Below, piece after piece: positions 51,881 through 57,804 of a stretch of 64,000 bases of DNA. Made by a program: the position numbers and the translations under genes. Each line of letters begins with the position of its first letter. Position 1 is the stretch's first letter. The notes beneath the pieces were generated by a model. The model had not been told where the DNA came from. It did no database searches and saw nothing but the letters and a program-made list of their open reading frames with translations. The DNA is from Sphingomicrobium lutaoense (lineage in GTDB: Bacteria > Pseudomonadota > Alphaproteobacteria > Sphingomonadales > Sphingomonadaceae). The stretch lies in the NCBI RefSeq assembly GCF_014195685.1, contig NZ_JACICF010000001.1, positions 691,317-755,316 of the forward strand, in the 5' to 3' direction.

Positions 51881-51953
51881 CTTTTTCCCCGTTCACTGCC
51901 TGTCCGGCCCCAAGGGGCTGGAAAGTCGCGCGGATCGTGCCTAGGTGACCCTT

Positions 51954-52490
51954 ATGGCGCGTCAACGCAGATCCGATGATTGGGGCTTTCCCCGTTGGCG
52001 CTCCTATGGCGACAAGGGCAGCGAGGCCGCCAAGGTGCGTCTGTGCGACCGGGTCAATTGCAACGAACCCGGTACCTGCCCGGCGCCCAAGGCTCCCAAC
52101 AAGCCCGAACGCTGGTATTTCTGCGAGAAACATGCCGGCGAATATAACAAGGGCTGGAACTATTTCGCGGGCCTCGACAAGGACGAGGCCGCGCGCCGCG
52201 CCGCCGAGGAAAATCGTGATGCTTCCGCCTTCCGCCAGTCGGCCCACTATCAATGGGCCGGGCCGGGCGATGGCAGCCGCAGCCGCGACGAAATGCGCGC
52301 TCTCGATATCCTCGGTCTCGATCCCGACGCGGAATTCGAAACAATCCGCAAGGCCTATCGGGCGATGGCGAAGCAACTCCATCCCGACGTCAATCCGGAT
52401 GACGAGGAAGCCGCACTGGAATTCCAGAAGGTGCAGGCGGCCTATGACGTTCTCAAGAAAGCCGAAGAGCAGCGCCAGGCGCTAGGCTAG
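51954..52490 (+). CDS. DnaJ-domain protein
   Basis: A 178-residue protein with an unusual N-terminal half containing cysteine pairs (CDRVNCNEPGTC, FCEKHAGEYNKGWNYF) and a C-terminal J domain (residues about 118-178): ALDILGLDPDAEFETIRKAYRAMAKQLHPDVNPDDEE, where HPD is the Hsp70-stimulating tripeptide. Such small alphaproteobacterial J proteins are probable Hsp70 co-chaperones; substrate unknown. The cysteines might bind metal. The ATG at 51954 is preferred over an upstream GTG at 51945. Confidence 0.85.
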   Translation: MARQRRSDDWGFPRWRSYGDKGSEAAKVRLCDRVNCNEPGTCPAPKAPNKPERWYFCEKHAGEYNKGWNYFAGLDKDEAARRAAEENRDASAFRQSAHYQWAGPGDGSRSRDEMRALDILGLDPDAEFETIRKAYRAMAKQLHPDVNPDDEEAALEFQKVQAAYDVLKKAEEQRQALG

Positions 52491-52942
52491 GGCCTGCGCA
52501 TATAAGTGCCCGTGACATTGGCAAGCTGCCGTTCCTCGTCGAGAAAGGCCGTGCCTCTCACGAACGCGACCCGGCTGGTCATCTTGTAGCATTCGCAGCG
52601 CGCGAAAACGCTGTCGCCAAGCAGGGCTGGGCGGAGATAGTCGAGCCTCAGATCGATGGTCACGATCGGTTCGAACAATCCCATGGTCTGAAAGACGCTG
52701 GCGCCCCCGCACATGTCGACAAGGCTGAAGATCGCCCCCGACGCGAGAATATTCTGCTCGGGCACGCCGACCAGTTCGGGACGGGAAGGCAGTTCGAGTT
52801 CGACCCAATTGTCGCCATGGTCGCGGTAGCGGTAGCCGACTGCCTTGCCATGACCAAAATTGCCCGCGAGGCCGACGAAGCGCTCGATGTCGAAATCGCC
52901 GCGCGTCAGCGCATCGGCCTCCGCGCTCGTGGGTGATTTCAT
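52487..52942 (-). CDS. PaaI-type hotdog-fold thioesterase
   Basis: A 151-residue hotdog-fold protein. It shows GHGKAVGYRYRDHGDNWVELELPSRPELVG, the helix with ASGAIFSLVDMCGGASVFQTM, and TIDLRLDYLRPALLGDSVFAR, in the pattern of PaaI-family acyl-CoA thioesterases. The acyl substrate is unknown. Its start overlaps the sufE stop by four bases (ATGA). The longer upstream frame is a shadow of sufE. Confidence 0.83.
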   Translation of the reverse strand: MKSPTSAEADALTRGDFDIERFVGLAGNFGHGKAVGYRYRDHGDNWVELELPSRPELVGVPEQNILASGAIFSLVDMCGGASVFQTMGLFEPIVTIDLRLDYLRPALLGDSVFARCECYKMTSRVAFVRGTAFLDEERQLANVTGTYMRRP

Positions 52943-53349
52943 GCCAGCCGCTCGGCGGTCTCGCGCACCAGCGCGATCATGTTGGGAACGCCTTGCGTGC
53001 GATTGGAGGACAATTCCCGCTTGAGGTCGAAAGGTTCGAGCGCGGCGGCGATGTCGGTTTGTGCGACCTCGCTGGCGGGCTTGTCCTGCACCGCAGAGAG
53101 GACGAGTGCGACCACCCCCTTGGTGATCGCCGCATTGCTGTCGGCAAGGAAATGCAGCCGGCCGTCCTCGAGCTGGGTGGGATAGACCCACACGCTGGCC
53201 GAACAGCCCCGGACCTTGGTGGCATCGGTCTTGAGTGCATCGGGCATCTCGTCGAGCTTTCGGCCGAGATCGATCAGCAGTCGATAGCGGTCCTCGCTGT
53301 CGAGAAATTCATATTCGTCGGCAATGTCGGAAAGGCTGGGAAGGGTCAT
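52939..53349 (-). CDS. sufE: SufE-family Fe-S cluster sulfur acceptor
   Basis: Accepts persulfide sulfur from the cysteine desulfurase SufS and passes it on for Fe-S assembly. It is about 136 residues with the family cysteine in VRGCSASVWVYP, then GRLHFLADSNAAITKGVVALVL and FDLKRELSSNRTQGVPNMI. I chose the ATG at 53349 (MTLPSLSDI). The gene lies 22 bases after the last small Psp-region gene on the same strand, so it may be read through from the psp operon. Confidence 0.92.
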   Translation of the reverse strand: MTLPSLSDIADEYEFLDSEDRYRLLIDLGRKLDEMPDALKTDATKVRGCSASVWVYPTQLEDGRLHFLADSNAAITKGVVALVLSAVQDKPASEVAQTDIAAALEPFDLKRELSSNRTQGVPNMIALVRETAERLA

Positions 53350-53371
53350 CGCACCTGCCATAGCCGCCTGT

Positions 53372-53617
53372 TCACCGCTCGCGCAATTGCTCGATCTCGC
53401 GGGTCAGCGTGTCTTCCTTCTCGACCGCGATGCGTTCGAGCACCTTCACCCGGTCGCGCAGCTGTTCGACTTCCTTCTCGAGCGCGAGATTGCTCGACGC
53501 CGAACCCGCCGCATCCGAGGACACGGCTCGTCGCTGGGCATATTTGGCGCGGACCATCATCGTCACCGTGCACATCACGATAAGTACGATCGCAACAACC
53601 ATTTCGAACACGTTCAT
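53372..53617 (-). CDS. PspB-like small membrane coiled-coil protein (4)
   Basis: An 81-residue protein: one membrane segment near the N-terminus (residues about 5-24, VFEMVVAIVLIVMCTVTMMV), a basic linker, then a charged coiled coil from about residue 45. It ends in RVKVLERIAVEKEDTL followed by TREIEQLR (residues 56-80). This ending is almost the same as that of gene 2 in the row. It starts inside the stop of gene 3 (four-base overlap). Not assignable to a named family; likely a paralogue of PspB/PspC tail. Confidence 0.82.
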   Translation of the reverse strand: MNVFEMVVAIVLIVMCTVTMMVRAKYAQRRAVSSDAAGSASSNLALEKEVEQLRDRVKVLERIAVEKEDTLTREIEQLRER

Positions 53618-53946
53618 CGCGCGACCTTTTCCTCGCTCTGGTCGGAGAGCGCGGCGAGCGCGTCGATTTCGGCGGCCAGCCGCGAAGGCTTGTCGGTCGC
53701 GATCCGCTCGAGCGTCGCCACCCGGTCGCCGATGCGGTTCAGCCGTTCGTGCAGATCCTCATTCTCTGCCTTGAGGCGCCGAATCTCGGCTTCGTCTTCG
53801 GGACGGGACTGGCGATGCAGCGGCTCGCCATCGTCACCGGTGATCGGATAGCCATGCTTCACCTTATAGGCCTCGAGAGCATACCAGCCGCCGACGATGA
53901 AGAGGATGAAAACGAAGACGAAAGGCAAGTCGAACATGGTGATCAT
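53614..53946 (-). CDS. PspB-like small membrane coiled-coil protein (3)
   Basis: A 110-residue protein: one membrane segment (residues about 6-24, LPFVFVFILFIVGGWYALE) and a long charged region. The tail carries a coiled coil with the motif RVATLERIATDKPSRL and EIDALAAL (residues 75-100), then a charged end. It is the longest of the four extra genes. It sits two bases after gene 2 and overlaps gene 4 by four. Function unknown; position and architecture suggest the same envelope complex. Confidence 0.82.
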   Translation of the reverse strand: MITMFDLPFVFVFILFIVGGWYALEAYKVKHGYPITGDDGEPLHRQSRPEDEAEIRRLKAENEDLHERLNRIGDRVATLERIATDKPSRLAAEIDALAALSDQSEEKVAR

Positions 53947-53948
53947 CC

Positions 53949-54197
53949 TTACTGCATCTGGCCCGGCTTGTCGCGGAGCGACTCGATCTCGCGCGCCAGG
54001 CTGTTTTCCTTCTCGACGGTAATCCGCTCGAGCACTTTCAGCCGGTCGCGCATCTCTTCGATTTCCTTGCGCAGTTCGCGATTTTCATGCTCGAGCCGCG
54101 GGTCGGCTTTCGACGGGCGTCCTTCGAGCAATTTCATCACGATCTTGCCTGCCGTCACGATGAGAATGATCCACAGGACAAAGGAAAAAGGGTTCAT
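53949..54197 (-). CDS. PspB-like small membrane coiled-coil protein (2)
   Basis: An 82-residue protein: one membrane segment (residues about 4-23, FSFVLWIILIVTAGKIVMKL) followed by a highly charged coiled coil and the motif RLKVLERITVEKENSL plus REIESLR (residues 52-75). The ending closely resembles gene 4, suggesting a recent duplication. Its start overlaps the stop of gene 1 by four bases (ATGA). No named family could be assigned. Confidence 0.82.
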   Translation of the reverse strand: MNPFSFVLWIILIVTAGKIVMKLLEGRPSKADPRLEHENRELRKEIEEMRDRLKVLERITVEKENSLAREIESLRDKPGQMQ

Positions 54198-54469
54198 CGA
54201 TCAGGCTCGCTTTCCATGCGGGGGAGGGAGCGCAGGGCATCGATCTGAGAAGCGGTCTGTGCTCCGCTGTCGACGACGATCTGTTCCAATACACGCACGC
54301 GCTGCTCCAGTTCGCGGTCACCTTTTCCTTGGTGCCGGGCGGTCTTGGCCTGCTCGGCCTCCAGTTCGAGGCGTCGTTCCTTCATCTTCAGCCAGCGATG
54401 GACGACCGTAAAGAAAAGAATGGTCGGGATCGTCACGAACAGGAGAATGGCGACCAGTTCTTCGTCCAT
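54194..54469 (-). CDS. PspB-like small membrane coiled-coil protein (1)
   Basis: A 91-residue protein: one membrane segment (residues about 5-26, VAILLFVTIPTILFFTVVHRWL) followed by a charged coiled coil and the motif RVRVLEQIVVDSGAQ then SQIDALR (residues 57-80). It begins nine bases after the pspC stop. It is the most divergent of the four at the tail (LEQ in place of LER). Architecture resembles PspB. Confidence 0.82.
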   Translation of the reverse strand: MDEELVAILLFVTIPTILFFTVVHRWLKMKERRLELEAEQAKTARHQGKGDRELEQRVRVLEQIVVDSGAQTASQIDALRSLPRMESEPDR

Positions 54470-54478
54470 GCCGCCCTC

Positions 54479-54865
54479 CTAGCGAAGATCGTCGATCTGT
54501 TGGGCCAGCACGCGGTTCTCGCTGGTCACGAAACTCTCGATATCGGCGAGGCGGCGGTCGATGTCGCGGAATTGCGAGTGGATCTGGCGCGCCGACTTGC
54601 GCGGGCTGGCGCGGACCCCCTGCCAGAAACGGCGCTCTTCCTCGTCGCTGCTGCTGATGCCTTCGGGGCGATTGTCGGCGATCCAGCCGGCGATGAAGTA
54701 TAGCGGCACGGTCGAACCGCCCGACATAAAGACGGTCATCAGGAACATGATCCGGACGAGCGTGACGTCGAAGCCCGTGTAATCGGCGATCCCGGCACAC
54801 ACGCCCATCACCTTGCCGTTGCGCTTGTCCTTGTAGAATTTGGTGCGGCTCGGGGGCTGGGGCAT
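54479..54865 (-). CDS. pspC: Phage-shock protein PspC
   Basis: Inner-membrane activator that senses envelope stress and, with PspB, relieves PspA inhibition of PspF. It has 128 residues: the PspC domain in residues about 5-66 (VMGVCAGIADYTGFDVTLVRIM, then a hydrophobic hairpin) and a C-terminal amphipathic tail RLADIESFVTSENRVL with QQIDDLR (residues 105-128). E. coli PspC ends in a similar tail. Its ATG overlaps the pspB stop (TGATG). Confidence 0.94.
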   Translation of the reverse strand: MPQPPSRTKFYKDKRNGKVMGVCAGIADYTGFDVTLVRIMFLMTVFMSGGSTVPLYFIAGWIADNRPEGISSSDEEERRFWQGVRASPRKSARQIHSQFRDIDRRLADIESFVTSENRVLAQQIDDLR

Positions 54866-55188
54866 CAGCGGCGCTCCTTCTCGCGGCCCATCAGGGCCTC
54901 ATGTTCGGCAAGCAGTTCGTCGGCCCGGCCAATGAGGCCCTGGTCGCGGTTGCGGTCGACCGTCAGGCATTTCTGCCGCCAGTTGGGATCCTCGGCATTC
55001 ATGATCCGCTCGATCGTGCAGATGCGTTCGTCGAGGCGCCGCGCCGCGTCATGCAGTTCCTCGAGCAGCTTCTCGTCGGGCACGGTCAGTGTCGCCTGGC
55101 TCTTCCACCGCGTGATGTAGTGGAAGATCAACCACGGCAGGCCGATGAAAATCGACACGATGGCGATCACCGGAATCAACTCGTCCAT
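54865..55188 (-). CDS. pspB: Phage-shock protein PspB
   Basis: Small inner-membrane partner of PspC. It has 107 residues: a membrane segment in residues about 7-26 (VIAIVSIFIGLPWLIFHYIT), then a coiled-coil region RRLDERICTIERIMNAEDPNW (residues 51-71) closely resembling the PspB cytoplasmic end of E. coli. A C-terminal extension of about 35 residues follows that E. coli PspB lacks. It lies 30 bases after pspA. Confidence 0.9.
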   Translation of the reverse strand: MDELIPVIAIVSIFIGLPWLIFHYITRWKSQATLTVPDEKLLEELHDAARRLDERICTIERIMNAEDPNWRQKCLTVDRNRDQGLIGRADELLAEHEALMGREKERR

Positions 55189-55218
55189 ATTTCAATTCCC
55201 CTTTTGCCCGACGGGCAG

Positions 55219-55890
55219 TTACGACTTGTTCTTGGCTTTGAGCGCGGCTTTCATCGCTTCGAGTTCGGCATCGACCTTGTCGGAGGCGCGCAGGCCCGCA
55301 ATTTCTTCTTCGAGGCTCTTGGGGCCGGTCATGCCGAGCGCGTCGGCATGGCCCTCGGCAAGATCGGCACGCTTCTCGAGCATGTCGAAGCGCGAGAAAG
55401 CGTCCTCGGTCCGCCCGCCATTCAGAAGCTCGCGCGCCTTGGCGCGCGTCACCGCGCTTTCGAGGCGCGTGGCGATGGCATTCTGGCGAGCGCGCGCTTC
55501 GCGCAGCTTGGCCTGCAGCTTGGCGATGTCGGCTTCGTAGGTCTTGAGCGTCTCGTCGATCGCCTCGATTTCCTGCTTGAGGCCCTCGGCCATTTCGGCG
55601 GCCTTCTGCCGCTCGACCAGCGCCTGCTTGGCGAGATCCTCGCGGTCCTTCGACAGCGCAAGCTCGGCCTTCTCGGTCCAGCTTTCCTGCATTTCCTCGA
55701 GCCGTGCATAGGCGCGGCGCATTTCCTTGCCGTCGGCAATCGAGCGAGCGGCGCTGGCGCGAACCTCGACGAGCGTTTCTTCCATTTCGAGAATGATCAT
55801 CCGGATCATGCGCGCCGGATCCTCGGCACGGTCCAGGATTTCCGTCATGTTGGCTGCAAAGATATCCCTGACACGGGAAAAGATAGCCAT
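55219..55890 (-). CDS. pspA: Phage-shock protein PspA
   Basis: Peripheral membrane protein that both inhibits PspF and stabilises stressed membranes. It has 223 residues, nearly all helical coiled coil, starting MAIFSRVRDIFAANM, the amphipathic helix region of PspA/IM30 family, then RAEDPARMIRMIILEMEETL. A ribosome-binding site (ggagtga) lies just upstream, and a sigma54 promoter about 40 bases upstream. First gene of the psp operon. Confidence 0.96.
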   Translation of the reverse strand: MAIFSRVRDIFAANMTEILDRAEDPARMIRMIILEMEETLVEVRASAARSIADGKEMRRAYARLEEMQESWTEKAELALSKDREDLAKQALVERQKAAEMAEGLKQEIEAIDETLKTYEADIAKLQAKLREARARQNAIATRLESAVTRAKARELLNGGRTEDAFSRFDMLEKRADLAEGHADALGMTGPKSLEEEIAGLRASDKVDAELEAMKAALKAKNKS

Positions 55891-55926: not shown

Positions 55927-55942
55927 TGCCAGAACCATGCCA
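55927..55942 (-). promoter_or_regulatory. Sigma54 (-24/-12) promoter of the psp operon
   Basis: Read on the minus strand: TGGCATGGTTCTGGCA, with the GG of -24 and the GC of -12 separated by exactly ten bases. This matches TGGCACG-N4-TTGCA with two mismatches. Transcription would start near 55916, giving a 26-base leader before pspA. A sigma54 activator of PspF type is encoded immediately next door, which strongly supports the call. Confidence 0.8.
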
Positions 55943-56044: not shown

Positions 56045-57100
56045 ATGGAACGGACCAATCAATTCGTCGGGCAAAGCCTCGCCTTTCTCGACGCCGTCGA
56101 ACGCGCGAGCCGTGCCGCGCCGCTCAACCGTCCCGTTCTCGTAATCGGTGAGCGCGGTACCGGCAAGGAACTCATCGCCGAACGCCTGCATCACCTCTCG
56201 ACGCGCTGGTCGGGTCCGCTGGTGACGATGAACTGCGCCGCGCTTCCGGAAAATCTCATCGAGGCCGAACTCTTCGGGCATGAAGCCGGCAGCTTCACCG
56301 GCGCTGCCAAAACCCGCCAGGGCCGTTTCGAGGAAGCCGACGGCGGCACGCTCTTCCTCGACGAATTGGCGACGCTTTCGTCGGCGGCGCAGGACCGGCT
56401 GCTCCGCGCCGTCGAATATGGCGAGATCACGCGGATCGGTGCCTCGAAGCCCATTTCCGTCGATGTGCGTATCGTCGCCGCCACCAACGAACATCTTCCC
56501 GACCTGGTCGAGCGTGGCCAGTTCCGCGCTGATCTTCTCGACCGCCTGTCCTTCGAGGTGGTGACCCTGCCACCGCTGCGCGCCCGCGAAGGCGACATTC
56601 TCCTTCTCGCCGAACATTTCGGGCGGCGCATGGCGGTCGAGCTCGACTGGCCCAACTGGCCGGGCTTTTCGCCCAAGGCCGCCGAACGGCTCGAGACCTA
56701 TCCCTGGCCCGGCAATGTGCGCGAATTACGCAATGTCGTGGAACGGGCGGTCTATCGCGCCGAAGACCCCGAACGGCCCGTGGAGGAAATCCAGTTCAAT
56801 CCCTTCCGTTCGCCTTGGACACCCTTGTCCTCTTCCGAGCTGGAAGCGGCCGACGACGGCGAAATGCGCGAACCTGCGCGCCCGGGCGCGGCCGCGAACG
56901 AAGGGGAGGACGCCGCCCGCATCGAGGTCGAAACCGAAGACTTCAAGGCCAGCGTCGCCGAATATGAAAAGATCCTCATCGGCACTGCGCTCGAAAAGCA
57001 TCGCTTCAACCAGCGGGCGACCGCGGAGGCCCTGGGGCTGAGCTACGACCAGCTTCGCCATGCGATGAAACGGCTCAAGCTCAACGCCGACGCAGCCTGA
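56045..57100 (+). CDS. pspF: Sigma54-dependent activator PspF
   Basis: AAA+ enhancer-binding protein that activates the psp promoter and is held inactive by PspA. It has 351 residues with no N-terminal sensor domain, as in PspF. Walker A is GERGTGKE (35-42), the sigma54-contacting loop is GSFTGA (82-87) in place of GAFTGA, and Walker B is GGTLFLDELATL. Trp55 in TRWSGPL matches the PspA-contact tryptophan of E. coli PspF. A C-terminal Fis-type HTH follows (NQRATAEALGLSYDQLRHAM). ATG at 56045; a TTG at 56039 is also in frame. Confidence 0.92.
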   Translation: MERTNQFVGQSLAFLDAVERASRAAPLNRPVLVIGERGTGKELIAERLHHLSTRWSGPLVTMNCAALPENLIEAELFGHEAGSFTGAAKTRQGRFEEADGGTLFLDELATLSSAAQDRLLRAVEYGEITRIGASKPISVDVRIVAATNEHLPDLVERGQFRADLLDRLSFEVVTLPPLRAREGDILLLAEHFGRRMAVELDWPNWPGFSPKAAERLETYPWPGNVRELRNVVERAVYRAEDPERPVEEIQFNPFRSPWTPLSSSELEAADDGEMREPARPGAAANEGEDAARIEVETEDFKASVAEYEKILIGTALEKHRFNQRATAEALGLSYDQLRHAMKRLKLNADAA

Positions 57101-57180: not shown

Positions 57181-57804
57181 ATGGCCTTCATCCTTCCCGA
57201 CCTGCCTTTTGCCAAAGACGCGCTGGGCGATCACATGTCGGCGGAAACGCTCGATTACCATCATGGCAAGCATCACAAGGCCTATGTCGACAAGACCAAC
57301 GGCATGCTCGGCGATCATGGGCTCGAAGGCGCCAGCCTCAGCACGGTGATCAAGACCGCCAAGGAAAAGGGCGAAAAGGGTCTGTTCAACAACAGCGCCC
57401 AGATCTGGAACCACAGTTTCTTCTGGCTGGGCCTTGCGCCCGAAGGCTCGACCAAACCTTCGGAAAAACTCCAATCGATGATCGACAGCGACTTCGGTTC
57501 GACCGACAAGATGCTGGAAGCGCTGCAGAATGAAAGCGCCAACCATTTCGCGTCGGGCTGGGGCTGGCTCATCCTCAACAATGGCAAGCTCGAAGTGACG
57601 TCACTCCATGATGCCGACAGCCCGGTTGCCCATGGCATGACCCCGCTGTTCACCGTCGATGTCTGGGAGCATGCCTATTACATCGACTATCGCAATGCGC
57701 GGCCCGACTATCTGAAGAGCGTGCTCAACAATATCGTCAACTGGGATTTCATCAGCGAAAACCTTGACGGCCAAGGCGTGCAGCGCGCCGACCAGATGGG
57801 CTGA
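57181..57804 (+). CDS. sodB: Superoxide dismutase (Fe-type)
   Basis: Dismutates superoxide to peroxide and oxygen. It is 207 residues with the four metal ligands in place: LDYHHGKHHKAYVD, NNSAQIWNHSFFW, FTVDVWEHAYYIDY. The WGWLILNNGKLEV segment and NHSFF favour the iron form over manganese. A ribosome-binding site (aggagc) precedes the ATG, and a strong terminator follows. Confidence 0.96.
   Translation: MAFILPDLPFAKDALGDHMSAETLDYHHGKHHKAYVDKTNGMLGDHGLEGASLSTVIKTAKEKGEKGLFNNSAQIWNHSFFWLGLAPEGSTKPSEKLQSMIDSDFGSTDKMLEALQNESANHFASGWGWLILNNGKLEVTSLHDADSPVAHGMTPLFTVDVWEHAYYIDYRNARPDYLKSVLNNIVNWDFISENLDGQGVQRADQMG

Follow-up and report, generated by a model that had tools for sequence, protein, structure and literature searches.

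In the stretch of 64,000 nucleotides from Sphingomicrobium lutaoense analysed here (contig NZ_JACICF010000001.1, positions 691,317 to 755,316; hereafter the window), the genes pspA, pspB and pspC are followed on the same strand by four small genes, called x1 to x4 in what follows, whose products are, by profile comparison, remote homologues of PspB that stand at the edge of the PspB family as drawn by the model cut-offs. They belong to a real, conserved and recombining array of PspB-like units that is partly foreshadowed in print and whose function we infer. We put at about one half the probability that the four genes would encode accessory PspB-type subunits, controlled by PspF and sigma-54, that hetero-oligomerise with PspB and PspC and tune the docking of PspA.

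The four genes and their place in the psp operon

We rule out that these are chance open reading frames (ORFs), because every complete interval between pspC and sufE in the genus (36, with that of the window) has homologues at this position, and the ratio of non-synonymous to synonymous substitution rates (dN/dS) was 0.04-0.36 in 8 of 8 close-pair comparisons. Among the remaining 11 pairs, which were more divergent and had been matched by a choice of subtype, the ratio was 0.13-0.54 in 10 and 1.12 in one. Judged by these ratios, close orthologues of the units are under purifying selection. Each of x1 to x4 has a single hydrophobic segment inside its first 24 residues, followed by a stretch in which 38-50% of the residues are charged, and scans with Pfam and NCBIfam models found no other domain above cut-off in the four. 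A single N-terminal hydrophobic segment, with none elsewhere, was also seen by hydropathy in 127 of 127 units (a set that excludes the decayed unit G019_4), which bears out the layout proposed in the first-pass annotation of this DNA, namely one N-terminal membrane segment and a charged coil with no other domain. A known structure for the units was rejected, the best match in a PDB search being no better than E 0.2. The features of the locus are as follows.

56045..57100, plus strand (divergent): pspF, sigma-54 activator; TIGR02974 E 1.4e-147, above cut-off
55927..55942, minus strand: candidate sigma-54 promoter TGGCATGGTTCTGGCA, with 2 mismatches to TGGCACGNNNNTTGCW; it begins 52 nt before pspA
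55219..55890, minus strand: pspA; TIGR02977 E 2.6e-77, above cut-off
54865..55188, minus strand: pspB, 107 aa, with a C-terminal extension; TIGR02976 E 8e-24, above cut-off; PF06667 E 2.4e-25
54479..54865, minus strand: pspC; TIGR02978 E 1.2e-36, above cut-off; its last ~40 aa are a coil module common to the array
54194..54469, minus strand: x1, Q-type unit, 91 aa; array profile E 3.2e-20; end QTASQIDALR
53949..54197, minus strand: x2, T-type unit, 82 aa; array profile E 1.7e-25
53614..53946, minus strand: x3, H-type unit with HGYP motif, 110 or 107 aa; array profile E 8.9e-22
53372..53617, minus strand: x4, terminal T-type unit, 81 aa; array profile E 2.4e-25; TIGR02976 E 3.6e-6
52939..53361, minus strand: sufE, conserved right-hand neighbour of the array; PF02657 E 1.4e-34

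The order on the minus strand is thus pspA, pspB, pspC, x1, x2, x3, x4 and sufE, with pspF divergent; sufE is probably not part of the system. The start of x1 lies 9 nt past the pspC stop, and the genes overlap by 4 nt at x1/x2 and at x3/x4. The coordinates, strand, sizes (91, 82, 110 and 81 aa) and junctions (9, -4, 2 and -4 nt) first reported for the four extra genes were all confirmed, the length of x3 being 110 aa when counted from the first ATG and 107 aa from a second ATG three codons on. Counted from the first start codon, the PspB ORFs of the genus are 89-112 aa long, against 70-79 aa (one of 91) in the other families read. The same genome has another PspC-domain match at a separate place (G000:C2:167056-167256). 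Further neighbours in the window are a J-domain protein, a 4HBT thioesterase and an Fe/Mn superoxide dismutase at 51945-52490, 52487-53191 and 57181-57804.

With a divergent pspF, a candidate sigma-54 site and pspABC, the window locus has the layout of a PspF/sigma-54 psp operon. By itself the sigma-54 pattern is no rarity in the window, with 7 matches versus 9.35 expected. The site before pspA scores 10/12 and occupies a position that is conserved in 26 of 37 loci of the genus: a site of at least 10/12 starting 51-71 nt before pspA was found at 29 of the 56 loci, those 26 included, and 20 of 2800 base shuffles reached 10/12. On the coding strand a single terminator-like site is present, within pspB, and the spacing of the junctions suggests that the array shares the psp transcript.

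Relation of the units to PspB and PspC

Model scans were applied to 46 array members (44 of the genus and 2 of another family) at E 0.01 or better; 20 of them were scanned singly, 10 picked by eye and 10 with the aid of a local PspB profile. TIGR02976, the PspB model, was matched by 22/46 members (best 1.2e-6) and TIGR02978, the PspC model, by 14/46 (best 7e-5), all under cut-off, and every NCBIfam model outside the Psp group was matched by one member only. In the Pfam scan PspB came first with 15/46, followed by coiled-coil models with at most 4 members each, some of them unrelated, and the final T unit of G024 (L047:3947-4189) was the one member to pass the PspB gathering score (26.1 versus 25.6 bits). 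The PspC domain PF04024 was absent from the 18 Pfam families matched by the 46 members. For the window itself, single-sequence matches to TIGR02976 were obtained with x4 (3.6e-6), x3 (0.013) and x1 (0.036), and none with x2. The matches to TIGR02978 were confined to the later part of that model, from position 35 at the earliest (x3) and from about position 46 to the end in T units; since the T-unit matches run to the model end, the second half of PspC is matched too.

Profile-profile comparison, with unit sets built from concordant units only, gave the three subtypes a probability of 81-96% against PspB (E 1.2e-5 to 1.1e-8), 20-94% against the PspC tail and 97-99% against each other. Two membrane-coil controls, FtsB and ATP synthase b, scored 1-49% (E 1.8e-4 to 0.035), and PspA and the PspC N-domain scored 3% or less. 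The alignment with PspB spans the helix and the first coil (unit columns 6-7 to 64-89), and that with the PspC tail is a C-terminal stretch of 38-40 columns. When the window's own genome was searched with the array profile, the four units were followed by the PspC tail (1.1e-4), another place (0.033) and PspB (0.05). These comparisons show a remote homology of the units to PspB beyond that of the membrane-coil controls, and by the model matches and the profile alignments to both proteins a unit resembles PspB at its start and the PspC tail at its end. The first interpretation stands in part. That PspB-related units have been multiplied beside pspC is supported: where the weak array-profile matches of other families could be placed they were PspB in 14 of 14 cases (see below). 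It needs correction in that none of the four genes passes a PspB cut-off and that they end, at the C-terminus, like the PspC tail.

Subtypes and turnover of the array

By motif and profile the units fall into three subtypes, Q (AEKAAQYA...TAxQIEAL), H (HGYP) and T (PFEMV...VEKE), and the window array reads Q-T-H-T. A T unit stands last in 35/36 complete intervals of the genus, the exception being G013, which has a frameshifted T after its last intact unit. The subtypes are common to several genera: at least one of the three was present in 12 of 14 arrays read from other genera of the family, among which that of G104 does not end in T. Nine of these 14 arrays (L234-L240, L244, L247) hold a further divergent unit, W (DLKERIRKLEAIA), as their last gene before sufE; no W-type unit was seen in the window's array.

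The array also changes. Besides the frameshifted T unit of G013 (L053) there is one decayed T unit in G019 (L070), and units can therefore be lost. Of the relatives sampled, G018 is the nearest to the window by PspC; the two share 91% of PspC but only 34-51% in four unit pairs, and their arrays hold 4 units (window) and 5 (G018). The clearest case is the first unit of G034, for which the blastn diagonal switches from G001 unit 1 (nt 110) to unit 2 (nt 109), the two pieces being 86 and 87% identical (81 and 87% in an earlier comparison). G034 has 5 units and G001 has 6, and the match is split within unit 1 into two adjoining pieces, with 266 nt skipped and the frame kept. By this alignment G034_1 is a hybrid that joins units 1 and 2 of G001 in frame, produced by a loss in one species or a gain in the other. 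Such a hybrid in one species, of two units that are neighbours in its relative, leads us to conclude that the array recombines. A scan for breakpoints within genes returned 5 rows, of which only G034/G001 was clean, and at the DNA level hybrid formation was seen in this pair only. A crosstabulation of N- and C-terminal types by regular expression found 99 of 124 units concordant, 15 discordant and 10 unclassified; at least 4 of the 15 are pattern errors by eye (G036_2, G011_2, G018_2, G013_1), and others make up hybrid-like groups of related units.

Distribution in the family

PspC was found in 56 of 61 genomes. Complete pspC-sufE intervals were available in 36 of the 37 genus genomes read (the intervals of G025b and G012, which run off their contigs, were left out of the 36), and all 36 hold units, 125 in total, with 2 (9 intervals), 3 (9), 4 (11), 5 (6) or 6 (1) units each. 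The 125 include the decayed G019_4, which was left out of the crosstabulation above, and not the extra frameshifted T unit of G013. Junctions of 30 nt or less were found in 109/125 cases, 56 of them overlapping.

For the rest of the Sphingomonadaceae we picked 35 genera from 96, 28 for having an array-profile match and 7 for having none. Units follow pspC in 27 of the 29 genera with pspC, which given the way of picking is not an unbiased rate; of the two exceptions G109 has no unit and G135 only a divergent last one. The other six genera lack both pspC and units. The 112 matches in these genera comprise 96 downstream of pspC, 11 PspC tails, 2 PspB and 3 elsewhere; the last three are a weak match, a second PspC matched in its tail and, in G124, a DUF6487-like protein with the coil. 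Linkage to pspC is thus near-complete within the family, with 96 copies after pspC versus 1 strong unlinked coil match. The G124 protein (L233:4752-5180) has 142 aa, a DUF6487 match of E 8.4e-5, just below cut-off, and the coil module at its end, and is unlinked to psp. At the scale of the whole family 185/199 genomes match at 0.001 and 181/199 better than 1e-10; in the placed sets all matches to PspB or to a PspC tail were weaker than this.

Relatives outside the family

At the scale of the order, 174/196 genomes match the array profile at 0.001, PspB matches included. At that of the class 2/142 match, both of Sphingomonadaceae, and at that of the phylum 11/150: five of Sphingomonadaceae, one other alphaproteobacterium, three of the family f157, which lies outside the class, and two weak. 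The alphaproteobacterial and f157 copies had no recognisable psp locus within 5 kb, save for one weak PspB-profile match. The unit-like genes of f157 (L229-L232) are likewise away from psp, and two of them are in one genome. A narrow-pattern scan of named contigs returned 37 loci, and all 37 were sphingomonad, alphaproteobacterial or Pseudomonadota.

We then considered 23 genomes from other families of the order, picked for having an array-profile match, which gave 28 strong and 18 weak matches. Of the strong copies, 18 had a known place relative to pspC; 16 of these lie elsewhere and 2 just after pspC, and 10 were unplaceable. Of the weak matches 4 were unplaceable, and all 14 others fell on the gene immediately 5' of pspC, which is that for PspB. 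Strict psp linkage of the unit family is ruled out by these stand-alone copies. Homologues unlinked to psp, which the earlier annotation had named as the finding that would count against it, are therefore frequent outside the family, and within the family the expected linkage holds almost throughout.

At four loci of the family f8 (L181, L182, L183, L194) the stand-alone gene begins 21-33 nt after a gene that we take to be that for RpoD, itself after one for DnaG; these and the other neighbours were recognised from their translations, with no family scan, and their names are our assumption. Seven further loci of the 20 read (L184, L185, L188-L191, L196) have the presumed RpoD cluster further upstream of the stand-alone gene, and in the others other genes are nearby. 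This suggests a separate conserved small membrane protein near DnaG-RpoD. Because relatives elsewhere in the order lie mostly away from psp, a psp-independent role exists or existed for relatives of the units. The ancestral unit may have been independent of psp and later moved and multiplied in Sphingomonadaceae, and two f8 genomes (G049, G059), each with one copy after pspC and one stand-alone copy, fit a half-way state.

Proposed role and alternatives

The mechanism that we propose is modelled on work in Yersinia and E. coli (excerpts of PMC5596341 and PMC3068692). As PMC5596341 describes it, PspB and PspC are joined in a complex of the inner membrane, and when the system is on, PspC binds PspA through its C-terminal cytoplasmic domain and releases PspF. 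Each unit would be anchored in the inner membrane by a single helix and have its coil in the cytoplasm, the coil joining a PspB-like first part to an end like the PspC tail. The units would be expressed from the psp operon driven by PspF and sigma-54, with coupled translation, and would most likely pair through helix and coil with PspB, with PspC and with each other. Such pairing could set the readiness of the PspC tail to dock PspA and free PspF, or the number of membrane docking sites for PspA. Recombination between neighbouring units would make the row grow, shrink and hybridise, giving a species-specific mix with T last in the genus.

Several observations weigh against this reading. All of x1 to x4 are under both PspB cut-offs; x4, the best scorer of the window, reaches 27.2 bits versus 51.7 for TIGR02976 and 19.9 versus 25.6 for PF06667, and 0/46 members reach the NCBIfam PspB cut-off (best 28.7 bits). 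The Q-type profile beats the FtsB control against PspB by only about 60-fold in E (1.2e-5 versus 7.1e-4) and scores only 19.5% against the PspC tail; PspB and the PspC tail compared directly give only 6.8%, and the 49% of the PspC tail against PspA shows the noise level of the profile comparison. Sigma-54 control may not be universal in the genus, because the best site is below 10/12 in 11/37 loci (8 or less in 10 of them). In G109 pspC is directly followed by sufE, and units are therefore dispensable. The stand-alone relatives in the order are mostly away from psp, several of them near the DnaG-RpoD gene pair, and the topology of PspC is disputed in E. coli (excerpts of PMC3068692).

The strongest alternative is that the units are co-induced effectors, membrane-anchored coiled-coil scaffolds that would shore up the inner membrane or keep PspA at it while leaving PspB/PspC signalling untouched, the array being a relocated and amplified stand-alone gene. 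Sixteen of the 18 placeable strong copies away from psp, the two f8 genomes with both forms and the seat of the array in a stress operon would all agree with this, but a PspC-tail-like end and a PspB-like start point to contacts with PspB and PspC, and we regard it as a tentative second choice. Less probable still, the units would be variable factors deployed in the psp response that act as decoys for phage or misplaced secretins or exclude them, an arms race keeping the factors diverse. A copy number of 2-6, one hybrid and the low identity of units between the window and G018 are what such factors might show; purifying selection in close pairs, subtypes common to several genera and the lack of a defence-family pattern (13 PADLOC families with one member each) speak against them, and an origin as defence or phage-borne genes was rejected, the 13 PADLOC and 22 PHROG families being matched by at most 3/46 members each. 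That convergent small membrane-coil proteins merely sit in the operon and resemble PspB by composition is very unlikely: no member is over the NCBIfam PspB cut-off, membrane-coil controls reach 49% and unrelated coiled-coil Pfam models are matched, but one member passes the Pfam PspB cut-off, the placeable weak genome matches are PspB (14/14), only Psp models among NCBIfam are matched by more than one member, and the place in the genus is fixed.

A further and rather speculative possibility is that the row is an array of recombining cassettes, interchangeable modules of the PspB/PspC-tail kind, from which each species would assemble its own set of membrane helices and coils. The Psp sensor would then be combinatorial, and changes in copy number and in-frame hybrids would let its inputs and set-point evolve. 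For the question of how PspB and PspC sense membrane stress, the one to seven natural PspB-like variants that the family holds in a fixed place beside pspC, the hybrid included, are ready material for testing which helix or coil sets the input and the docking of PspA.

Comparison with known systems

The units have in common with PspB (TIGR02976/PF06667) the N-terminal membrane helix, a short charged coil with an R..LE.I core and a gene beside pspC in the psp operon. A C-terminal E.PNW end is typical of PspB; by eye x1 to x4 are without it, whereas the window PspB has AEDPNW. Unlike PspB, the units have an L..EI..LR end module as in the PspC tail, stand 1-7 in a row and are under the NCBIfam cut-off in all 46 members scanned. 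The stand-alone T-like gene of other families shares the membrane-coil layout, with array-profile E down to 1.3e-23, but is mostly single and away from psp, at four f8 loci directly after the RpoD gene.

E. coli, too, has further small genes that belong to the psp regulon or go with it, those for PspD, PspE and PspG (in part after excerpts of PMC9239133); no PspD-named or rhodanese match was among the 18 Pfam families of the 46 members. In the same excerpts Popp et al. 2022 describe PspA and PspC paralogues and make no mention of a PspB array, and the excerpted account of Zymomonas, in which ethanol induces pspABC, mentions no gene downstream of pspC. Among open-licence papers on PspB paralogues and sphingomonad psp (subscription papers and preprints being outside the scope) we found no account of the array.

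The closest precedent is Ravi et al. 2024 (PMC11237479), the excerpted text of which reports PspB duplicates in psp operons, with AOL22920.1 as the example, and a divergent PspB at the PspC C-terminus. The first-pass annotation, which knew of no description of the four genes as one family, is thus to be corrected in that extra copies of PspB were already in print. These duplicates are, as here, extra PspB-type genes in a pspFABC operon; they take up one clause and one accession of that text, which does not mention the array, its subtypes, the hybrids or the family-wide distribution. Measured against the open-licence literature, what is new beyond such duplicates is the variable, recombining row of units in most sphingomonad genomes examined, and this suggests that models with a single PspB subunit do not cover the sphingomonads.

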